This document shows positions 55,204 through 57,471 of a DNA stretch of 64,000 nt, in pieces. This DNA comes from Lysobacteraceae bacterium NML93-0399. GTDB taxonomy: Bacteria; Pseudomonadota; Gammaproteobacteria; Xanthomonadales; Xanthomonadaceae. The stretch covers positions 248,001-312,000 of the forward strand of contig NTJI01000002.1 of NCBI GenBank assembly GCA_002307375.1, given 5' to 3'. A model generated the notes under the pieces. It saw nothing but the letters and a program-made list of their open reading frames with translations. It was not told the DNA's origin and did not search any database. Numbering within the stretch: the stretch's first letter is position 1; every line of letters starts with the position of its first letter. Position numbers and translations under genes: made by a program.

Positions 55204-55524
55204 TCACGCCGACAGCACCTCGGCGACCATACGCCCCAGCTCGCCCGATTCGTGCAGTTCCAGCGCAATATCGCATCCGCCGATCAGCTCGCCATGGATG
55301 AACAACTGCGGGAAGGTCGGCCAGTTCGAGAACCGCGGCAGGTTGGCACGGATCTCCGGCTCCTCGAGCACGTTGATGCTGCGGAATCCGCGAGCGCCGG
55401 CTTCGTGCAGGGCCGACACGGTGCGCGCCGAGAAGCCGCACATCGGAAACTGGGGCGTGCCCTTCATGAACAGCACGATGGCATGGCCGTCGATTTCGGC
55501 CTGGATGCGTTCAAGAATCGACAC
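55204..55524 (-). CDS. grxD: Monothiol glutaredoxin Grx4/GrxD
   Basis: The 106-residue protein has the CGFS active site (TPQFPMCGFSART), the conserved WPTFPQLFIHGELIGGCDI and the glutathione-binding loop. CGFS glutaredoxins bind and transfer [2Fe-2S] clusters. I choose GTG 55524, preceded by AGGAG at 7 nt, since upstream codons are not family-like. It is divergent from the SOD-like gene and first in the operon with the SDR and MarC genes. Confidence 0.95.
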   Translation of the reverse strand: MSILERIQAEIDGHAIVLFMKGTPQFPMCGFSARTVSALHEAGARGFRSINVLEEPEIRANLPRFSNWPTFPQLFIHGELIGGCDIALELHESGELGRMVAEVLSA

Positions 55525-55625
55525 GGTGACGCTCCTGCATGACACCGCCGCCGGACCGGGCCGACGGGGTTGGGGTGTGGGAATTGGTGCATTCTATCGC
55601 GTCGTCGCCTCACGGACCGCCGGCC

Positions 55626-56213
55626 ATGCCGCTCGAACTGCCCGCCCTGCCCTACGACCGCACCGCGCTGGAACCGCATCTGTCGGGCGACACGCTCGAC
55701 CAGCACCACGGTCATCTGCAGCGCGGACATGTCGAACGCCTCAACGCACTGCTCGCGGGCACCGAACTGGCCGACGCGCCGCTCGAAACCATCGTGCGCA
55801 AGGCACAGGGTGCGACGTTCGACCACGCCGCGCAGGTCTGGAACAACAGCTTCTACTGGCATTCCCTCAAGCCGGTGGCGGCAGGCGGTGGCGGCGAACC
55901 GAAAGGCCCCCTCGCGGAGGCGATCGCGCGACAGTTCGGTGATCTCGCCGCGTTCCGCAAGCGGTTCGACGCGTTGGCGCTGTCGACCTTCGGTGCGGGC
56001 TGGGTGTGGCTGCTGCAGCGTCCCGATGGACGCCTGGCCCTGGCGTCCACGGCGAACGCGGCCACGCCGATCACCGGCCAGGACACCCCGCTGCTGGCGC
56101 TGTCGCTGTGGGAGCACGCCTGGTATCTGGACTACCGCGACAACCGGCAGAAGTATCTGGACGCGTTCTGGCACCTGGTGAACTGGGACGCGGTGGCAGC
56201 GCGCTCGCGCTGA
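55626..56213 (+). CDS. Fe/Mn superoxide dismutase homologue, atypical metal site
   Basis: The 195-residue protein aligns over its length with SodB: LPALPYDRTALEPHLSGDTL, FDHAAQVWNNSFYWHSL, FGAGWVWLLQRPDGRLAL, LWEHAWYLDYRDNRQKYLDAFW. Of the four metal ligands the three histidines appear (HHGH region, DHAAQ, WEHAW). The aspartate of the usual DVWEH is Ser (LSLWEH). The second-shell Tyr34 position (HHGKHHxxY) also differs, with GHLQRGH. It may be a non-catalytic or altered-metal paralogue. It lies divergent to grxD. Confidence 0.88.
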   Translation: MPLELPALPYDRTALEPHLSGDTLDQHHGHLQRGHVERLNALLAGTELADAPLETIVRKAQGATFDHAAQVWNNSFYWHSLKPVAAGGGGEPKGPLAEAIARQFGDLAAFRKRFDALALSTFGAGWVWLLQRPDGRLALASTANAATPITGQDTPLLALSLWEHAWYLDYRDNRQKYLDAFWHLVNWDAVAARSR

Positions 56214-56238
56214 ACCGTCTGCCCGCCGCGGGAGGCGT

Positions 56239-57471
56239 TCAGCGCACGGCGTCGAGCATGTCGGCCGCATCGATCGGGCGTCCGATCAGATAGCCCTGCA
56301 CGAAGTCGCACCCGGCGCGCTGCAGCATCGCCAGCGTGGCCTCGTCCTCGACCCCTTCGGCGATAACCTCCATGTCCAGGTCGTGGGCGAGCTCGATCAT
56401 CGTGGACACGATGCGGCAGGCGCGACGGTCGTCGGCCATGTCGCGGATGAAGCTGCGGTCGATCTTCAGCCCGTCCAGCGGCAGGCGCCGCAGATAGGCC
56501 AGCGACGAATAGCCGGTGCCGAAATCGTCGATGGCGATGCTCACCCCGGCCGCGCGCAGTTGTGTCAGCAGGTGCGTGCAGCGCTCGACATCGCGCATCA
56601 GTGCGCTCTCGGTGATCTCCAGCACCAGTGCATCGCCGGGCACGCGCCAAAGCCGCAGCAGGTCGAGTGTTTCCTCGACGAAACCGGGCAGCTGCAACGC
56701 CTCTACCGACAGGTTCACCGCGATGCGGACCGGTGCGCCGTTCGCGCGCAGGGCGACCAGGTGCCGCAGCGCCACGTTGAGGTTCCAGCGGGTCAGCGCG
56801 CCGATCAGCCCGCCGCGCTCGGCCGTGGCGATGAATACATCGGGCGGAACCGGACCGAAGCGCGGGTGGGTCCAGCGCGACAGCGCTTCATAGCTGCCGA
56901 TCGCGCGTCCGGGCAGCGCGGCGATCGGCTGCAGGTGCAGCTCAAGACGGTTGTCGGCGATCGCCACCCGCAGATCGTCATGCAGTGTTTCGAGCGGAAT
57001 CGCAGGTGCCGTCCAGAACGCGTGGCGCTCGGGTTGCGAAGCGGCCGCCGCGCACGCGCTGTCGGCGCGCCGGCACAGCAGGTCGGCGTCGGTGCCGTCG
57101 AACGGCGCCACGGCGATGCCGGCCGCGACTGCGACCTGCACGACCGCGCCATCGCCGATATCGAACGCGGCCTGCAACGCACGCACGCATTTGCCGGCGC
57201 CGAGCGCGGCGTGCGCACGTCCGCGCAGCGCCGGCAGCAACACCAGGAAATCGTGCCCGGCGATGCGGTGGATCCGGTCGCCCGGTCGCAGCGCGGCGCG
57301 CAGGCACGCGTACATGGCATCGGCGAGTGCGGCGCCGGCCGCGTAGCCATGCGCCAGCTCGACCTCGCGCACACGCTGCGCGCGCACCACGACCACCGCC
57401 AAGGGCGCGTCGGGGTTCGCGTCGCGCAGGCAGCCGGCGACCTCTTCCAGTACCGCCGCATGGTTCAGCAC
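56239..57471 (-). CDS. Degenerate GGDEF-EAL protein, probable c-di-GMP phosphodiesterase
   Basis: The 410-residue cytoplasmic protein has an N-terminal GGDEF-like domain whose signature reads AGHDF, so cyclase activity is unlikely. The EAL domain (about 160-405) keeps the catalytic set: YEALSRW, NLSVEALQ, EITES, DDFGTGYSSLAYL, LKIDRSF, AEGVE and FVQGYLIGRP. It should hydrolyse c-di-GMP. It is 20 bp downstream of the HD-GYP-like gene and probably co-transcribed. Confidence 0.93.
   Translation of the reverse strand: MLNHAAVLEEVAGCLRDANPDAPLAVVVVRAQRVREVELAHGYAAGAALADAMYACLRAALRPGDRIHRIAGHDFLVLLPALRGRAHAALGAGKCVRALQAAFDIGDGAVVQVAVAAGIAVAPFDGTDADLLCRRADSACAAAASQPERHAFWTAPAIPLETLHDDLRVAIADNRLELHLQPIAALPGRAIGSYEALSRWTHPRFGPVPPDVFIATAERGGLIGALTRWNLNVALRHLVALRANGAPVRIAVNLSVEALQLPGFVEETLDLLRLWRVPGDALVLEITESALMRDVERCTHLLTQLRAAGVSIAIDDFGTGYSSLAYLRRLPLDGLKIDRSFIRDMADDRRACRIVSTMIELAHDLDMEVIAEGVEDEATLAMLQRAGCDFVQGYLIGRPIDAADMLDAVR

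Follow-up and report, generated by a model that had tools for sequence, protein, structure and literature searches.

A Luteimonas SodB ortholog lacking two metal ligands is probably a pseudoenzyme

Introduction

Dismutation of superoxide requires a redox metal in a four-ligand site, as is established from the chemistry of superoxide dismutases (SODs). The accessible text of a survey of 3,011 genomes describes the four ligands as "universally conserved" in its SodFM set (Sendra et al. 2023, PMC10172142). The DNA analyzed here, a stretch of 64,000 nucleotides from Lysobacteraceae bacterium NML93-0399 (contig NTJI01000002.1, positions 248,001 to 312,000; hereafter the window), carries a gene for a SodB homolog in which two of these ligands are replaced. 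Does such a protein still dismutate superoxide, and if not, what might it do?

Results

The window protein has lost two of its four metal ligands

The gene is a genuine open reading frame encoding 195 residues (Table 1). Its product matches the Pfam domains Sod_Fe_N (1.4e-19) and Sod_Fe_C (5.9e-35), both above the gathering score and over nearly the full length. Alignment against the E. coli FeSOD (PDB 1isa), the numbering of which is used throughout, bears out two observations of a preliminary description of this DNA: the usual DVWEH motif reads SLWEH, with Asp156 replaced by Ser, and the HHGKHHxxY-type segment is altered. The latter, HYGKHHQTY in helix 1 of the E. coli protein, reads HHGHLQRGH in the window protein, which changes His30 to Leu, His31 to Gln and the second-sphere Tyr34 to His, whereas the water-holding Gln69 is kept. 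The alignment also uncovered a further lost ligand, as VWNH is changed to VWNN, corresponding to His73 to Asn. The same description had assigned the protein to the SodB family with all three His ligands persisting; the family membership stands, on both Pfam domains and the predicted FeSOD fold, but the His ligands are reduced to His26 and His160, so that two of the four ligands (three His and one Asp) are gone. The protein contains no Cys, and scores 235.2 bits against the NCBIfam equivalog for superoxide dismutase [Fe] (NF007832), the cut-off of which is 348, a shortfall that carries little weight by itself.

Table 1. Coordinates of the pseudo-sodB locus within the window
Feature	Coordinates	Strand	Remarks
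pseudo-SodB (SodB ortholog)	55626..56213	+	H26-N73-S156-H160, E. coli numbering (ORF H27, N74, S160, H164); ATG at 55626, stop ends at 56213
His26 codon CAC, ligand retained	55704..55706	+	H in 44/47 Luteimonas ligand-lost orthologs
Residue 34 codon CAT, His; Tyr in canonical SODs	55728..55730	+	Y 0/47, H 30/47
Residue 66 codon CAC, His; Asn in most canonical SodB	55824..55826	+	H/C 44/47 vs 0/121 canonical
Ligand 73 codon AAC, His to Asn, lost	55845..55847	+	alignment with E. coli FeSOD
Ligand 156 codon TCG, Asp to Ser, lost	56103..56105	+	alignment with E. coli FeSOD
His160 codon CAC, ligand retained	56115..56117	+	H in 45/47 Luteimonas ligand-lost orthologs
grxD, CGFS monothiol glutaredoxin, divergent neighbor	55204..55545	-	homology starts at GTG 55524
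grxD/pseudo-sodB intergenic region	55525..55625	.	101 bases

The closest named proteins, with 90-92% identity, come from Luteimonas sp. 9C, Luteimonas sp. XNQY3, L. terrae and Lysobacteraceae bacterium PS02340, and nine named proteins are identical to proteins from the genus group of the window; judged by these nearest named relatives, the window genome most probably belongs to Luteimonas. A sequencing error as the cause of the replacements can be rejected, because the change from GAC or GAT to TCG takes three base changes and the replacements of both His73 and Asp156 recur across 47 Luteimonas orthologs. Moreover, the same TCG codon is found at position 156 in 14 of the 16 rows closest to the window, the window itself counted.

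A structure predicted by AlphaFold2 from 55 aligned proteins of the locus has a mean pLDDT of 96.9. Structural comparison gave a Z score of 32.1 and a root-mean-square deviation of 0.7 Å over 191 residues against 1isa, and Z scores of about 32 with 0.7-0.8 Å over 191 residues against FeSODs including 3lio. The model suggests that the window protein is compatible with the FeSOD fold, which is compatibility rather than proof, and an FeSOD fold is to be expected since canonical SODs were included in the alignment.

The gene is the sodB ortholog of an ancestral grxD-sodB pair

As the preliminary description had noted, a CGFS glutaredoxin gene diverges from the SOD gene; its product scores 134.8 bits against the TIGR00365 profile (cut-off 117.1). 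The arrangement is common to the family: among SodB rows with grxD, in Luteimonas and in other genera, the two genes are always divergent and lie 73-253 bases apart (measured between tblastn matches), and in 89 later-added loci, scored for presence only, grxD is found in every fetched stretch. A divergent grxD adjoins all 47 ligand-lost Luteimonas orthologs, and all four ligands are present at the grxD-sodB locus in 136 of 137 non-Luteimonas family genomes, the exception being L129. As this divergent pair is shared across the family with the ligands intact elsewhere, the comparison indicates that the pair is ancestral and that the window gene is the sodB ortholog. For the same reason nothing in the neighborhood points to a new role: the link to iron-sulfur biology suggested earlier gains no support from grxD, which accompanies four-ligand SodB across the family in the same divergent pair.

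We also considered a spare copy beside an intact sodB. This was rejected, as the window gene itself occupies the sodB locus next to grxD, and L001, the genome's complete SOD, is of another type, with 35% identity.

Ligand loss is nearly genus-wide in Luteimonas

In total, 52 Luteimonas genomes were searched. Both His73 and Asp156 are replaced in 47 of them, one is intact (L070, genome G166), and four fall outside both states: G182 has a canonical SodB (L069) without grxD in a short stretch, G178 gave no match, G150 has another SOD type (L098) together with a SodA-type protein, and G187, which is 92% complete, has a SodA-type protein only. L069, from a genome 88% complete and 4% contaminated, and L098 were left out of the Luteimonas set. 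The grxD-linked sodB locus is thus present in 48 of the 52 genomes, and Tyr34 is also replaced in 47 of these 48.

Across the 47 ligand-lost orthologs, several other active-site residues are largely kept (His26 in 44, Gln69 in 46, Trp71 in all 47, Trp122 in 46 and His160 in 45), whereas the canonical residue is found in none of them at positions 73, 156 and 34. Position 73 is occupied by Asn (15), Thr (12), Leu (7), Asp (5), Glu (5) and one each of Gln, Cys and Ile; position 156 by Ser (25), Cys (19) and one each of Asn, Pro and Ala; and position 34 by His (30), Asp (6), Leu (4) and others in the remaining seven. Two orthologs, L084 and L085, have Gln at position 26, and two further ones, L094 and L095, are degraded, having lost the WEH region, with Ala at position 159 and His160 gone too. 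Nevertheless, the reading frames are open in all 47, at 190-212 residues.

Two further features of the old metal site were observed. In 15 of the 47 orthologs (e.g. L065 and L089), Cys156 stands beside Cys155, forming a vicinal Cys-Cys pair by the site. One lineage (L089-L093, L096 and L097) has WPH in place of WEH, plus an acidic residue at position 73 and Cys156, so that two His, an acidic residue and a Cys occupy its four ligand positions.

A second, complete SOD is encoded elsewhere

The preliminary description had proposed a search for a second intact sod gene. The window genome contains two further Sod_Fe_C matches, L001 and L003, and L001 is such a gene, encoding elsewhere in the genome a complete SOD in which none of the four ligands is missing. 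At least two SOD matches are present in every one of the 47 ligand-lost Luteimonas genomes. All 19 of the SodA-type proteins longer than 180 residues that were read in Luteimonas, L001 included, have four ligands; "SodA-type" is our own label for L001 and similar proteins.

L003 (G000:C1:1206836-1206958), outside the window, is a C-terminal SOD fragment of about 50 residues. It shares 63-74% identity with a third SOD type found in five other Luteimonas genomes (up to 74%, L102), and looks like a remnant of a lost third SOD.

Active-site erosion in the family and its relation to the second SOD

To relate the state of SodB to the number of SODs, we tabulated 137 of the 149 family genomes; left out were six of the window's genus, three without a match, two with a best match of only about 1e-44 (G018 and G030) and the truncated G142. 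Of the non-Luteimonas genomes with a single SOD match, all 95 have the canonical residues at nine active-site positions, compared to 22 of the 42 with at least two matches; the remaining 20 are changed, 19 with the ligands intact and one with the ligands lost. This pattern agrees with relief of SodB by a second SOD, and with decay of the funnel and second sphere ahead of the ligands. Fisher's test on this table gives about 1e-12, a value that is not independent evidence because the states are phylogenetically clustered. An independent-pairs test, on a tree of 158 rows that include 21 of the 48 Luteimonas rows, yielded nine pairs on supported branches; on average, 0.9 of these pairs show erosion in the same direction and none in the opposite one, the rest showing no difference, and with these numbers significance is impossible. 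Since 22 of 42 genomes keep a canonical SodB, the table is non-independent and the pairs test has no power, a second SOD may at most be permissive for SodB erosion.

In a quick maximum-likelihood tree, built from 102 rows after omission of five active-site columns, the ligand state must have switched between intact and lost no fewer than three times, in Luteimonas, L129 and L047, all inside one fast-evolving clade of 68 rows. The branch joining the 47 has an SH-aLRT value of 91, obtained without bootstrap. The losses beyond Luteimonas, in L129 and L047 (Pseudoxanthomonas jiangsuensis), are likewise at the grxD-linked locus, with Q-L-N-H and L-L-N-H, respectively, at the four ligand positions. 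Another eroded type of SodB is represented by group g7 (L130-L132, L137 and L150), which carries Q69E and Y34L with the ligands intact.

Selection is strong near the window and weaker over the clade

Nei-Gojobori dN/dS ratios between the window pseudo-sodB and six close relatives (89-93% identity) are 0.066-0.105, compared to 0.116-0.160 for grxD over the same pairs; each pair of pseudo-sodB genes differs by 56-72 silent and 16-26 replacement changes. The 59 pairs that are 80% or more identical all fall at 0.023-0.289 with a median of 0.108 (grxD 0.098), an identity cut-off that biases these values low; the silent sites are nearly saturated, which raises rather than lowers the ratios. Medians over all pairs are 0.47 for pseudo-SodB, 0.47 for intact SodB and 0.23 for GrxD, but these lie near saturation, with most pseudo-SodB pairs distant, and were kept out of the verdict.

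Over the whole clade, the median dN ratio to GrxD is 2.36 for pseudo-SodB and 1.15 for canonical SodB, indicating an approximately twofold faster evolution. The mean column entropy is 1.20 bits (33 non-redundant rows) versus 0.67 bits (61 canonical rows); the degraded L094 and L095 were excluded from both the entropy set and the dN ratio. The relaxed columns comprise the active site plus positions 30, 34, 64, 118, 120, 159 and 163, which we take to lie in the dimer interface or the funnel, whereas no variation occurs across the 33 rows at Q69, W71, W77, W122, W124, P144, T146, G147, D149, W158, H160, W178 and W183. These estimates point to purifying selection that is strong among the close relatives of the window and weaker over the clade as a whole.

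Discussion

What the Luteimonas SodB ortholog may do

Altogether, we consider it likely that the sodB ortholog of Luteimonas has turned into a non-dismutase pseudoenzyme with some other job. Catalytic residues are missing, and purifying selection is seen among the close relatives of the window. As two ligands and the gate residue Tyr34 are gone and no consistent substitute has appeared, dismutase activity of the window protein is unlikely; presumably it has given up superoxide dismutation, a task left to the second SOD. Among the outcomes proposed in the preliminary description, loss of activity is thus the favored one, given that a second ligand is also gone and that the genome has a complete SOD at another locus, whereas altered metal use by the window protein is less probable. 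We propose that a second SOD would have rendered SodB redundant, that the funnel and second sphere would have eroded first, as in related genera, and that the metal ligands would have been lost afterwards, with a different property of the protein being preserved. More tentatively, the protein might now work as a SOD-fold binding protein that acts via a partner or via a small ligand in the remaining pocket, in which H26, Q69, W122 and H160 are kept and H66 is gained, and which would not carry out Fe/Mn redox cycling.

Alternatively, the site could have been re-made for a metal or cofactor, with H26 and H160 joined by new residues (S/C156, D/E73 in some lineages, H66 and H34) and used differently, in redox chemistry, storage or sensing. 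Metal sites commonly exchange His for Cys and vice versa. Of the 47 ligand-lost orthologs, 40 have His and 4 have Cys at residue 66, but neither is found there in any of 121 canonical rows, 115 of which have Asn, a gain that hints at such a site. H160, of which E159 is presumably the partner across the dimer, is retained in all 13 rows with Pro or Gln at position 159; this retention, together with the His or Cys gained at position 66, argues against plain drift of the pocket. Asp or Glu at position 73 occurs in ten rows, nine of which have Cys156. However, the residues at 73 and 156 vary widely, H26 is Gln in two orthologs, H34 is present in no more than 30 of the 47, and H66 is also found in 3 of 20 orthologs with the ligands kept but other active-site changes; for these reasons we rank a binding protein without catalytic Fe/Mn first and the re-made site second, as an unlikely reading. 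In addition, both rows with Ala159 (L094 and L095) lack H160 as well, and helix periodicity places residue 66 about two turns from residue 73, where the old site may be out of reach. If true, the re-made site would be one undescribed for the SodFM family in the portions of the literature examined. A still active SOD with ligands supplied by other residues would agree with the two remaining ligands and the retained Q69 and W122, but is highly improbable, as the replacements at 73 and 156 are inconsistent and Y34 is replaced in 47 of 47.

The gene might also be a relic, a redundant sodB heading for loss. Its faster evolution compared to canonical SodB and the degraded copies L094 and L095 agree with this, as does the upstream region, where the subclade of the window has, by eye, a TAGAAT-like -10 element facing sodB and a Shine-Dalgarno sequence weaker than those in relatives; a consensus promoter sought at 55400-56400 was not found. 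Near full-length open frames in all 47 orthologs and the excess of silent over replacement changes near the window speak against a relic, which we regard as quite unlikely. As L094 and L095 are degraded and no such ortholog was found in G150 and G187, pseudo-SodB may nonetheless be dispensable. A special case of the binding-protein reading is a regulatory partner that would tune the second SOD by pairing with it in mixed dimers. In E. coli, SodA and SodB do form such dimers, and E159, H160 and Y163 are kept in the window protein; yet positions 30, 64, 118, 120, 159 and 163, presumed to belong to the interface or funnel, are among the relaxed ones and E159 is Pro in 7 of the 47, and we hold this case to be very unlikely.

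Relation to known systems

The window protein shares with canonical SodB (E. coli FeSOD, 1isa) the predicted fold, both Pfam domains, Q69, W122, H26 and H160, and its gene shares the grxD neighbor with the canonical sodB of the family; it differs in lacking H73 and D156, both of which canonical SodB keeps. Another close counterpart is the FeSOD SodB of Xanthomonas citri (XAC2677), which the available text, on the basis of a comparative model, considers unlikely to be active owing to changes at residues 31 and 35 (own numbering), a probable inactivity held to be specific to Xanthomonas (PMC6322740). According to the same text, deletion of the X. citri MnSOD gene sodM was not obtained, and the gene is apparently essential (PMC6322740). 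XAC2677 resembles the window protein in being a probably inactive same-family relative beside another SOD, but as described there its ligands are intact and its funnel residues changed (PMC6322740), whereas in the Luteimonas orthologs the ligands themselves are lost. Five genomes of group g18, which is probably Xanthomonas, were read: E34 is present in all five, combined with C30 in four of them, which is the published pair under a different numbering, and with Y30 in the fifth. The window protein, with L30, H34, N73 and S156, does not match the C30 and E34 type with intact ligands. The alignments indicate that active-site erosion is not confined to Xanthomonas but affects further groups within the family, and that the loss of ligands seen in Luteimonas goes further.

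SOD-fold proteins occur in the mitochondrial ribosome, for which our literature search brought no confirmation. In plastids, PAP4 and PAP9 (FSD3 and FSD2) are SOD-fold subunits of the plastid RNA polymerase, a large complex, as judged from PDB names and titles. They belong to a complex, whereas the window protein is not known to be part of one. The Cu,Zn-SOD fold is unrelated to the Fe/Mn SOD fold. The inactive leporipoxvirus Cu,Zn-SOD homologs, which are listed in a review of pseudoenzymes (PMC10211241) and retain a binding job as a decoy for a copper chaperone, have that fold, in contrast to the Fe/Mn SOD homology of the window protein.

A search of the open-access literature found no published report of ligand loss in Luteimonas SodB. 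Nearly the whole genus appears to break the ligand universality described for SodFM in the accessible text (PMC10172142), and does so in a true sodB ortholog. One conserved locus thereby offers a graded series, from canonical SodB through forms with an eroded funnel and second sphere to forms with lost ligands, which lets one ask which non-dismutase property of SodB is worth keeping beside a second SOD. Annotations of "iron superoxide dismutase" at this locus in Luteimonas should be checked for the ligands before they are counted as SODs.

Motif searches and the downstream gene

The motif SLWEHA gave five matches in 299 genomes of the order, one of them in the window, and CLWEHA four matches in 369 genomes of the class. 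Examined by tblastn, these nine motif loci contain a SOD only at the window's own copy; the two patterns miss forms with N156, V157, WPH and WQH. Directly downstream of pseudo-sodB and convergent with it lies a gene for a GGDEF-EAL protein (56239-57471, reverse strand; Pfam EAL 2.1e-71).
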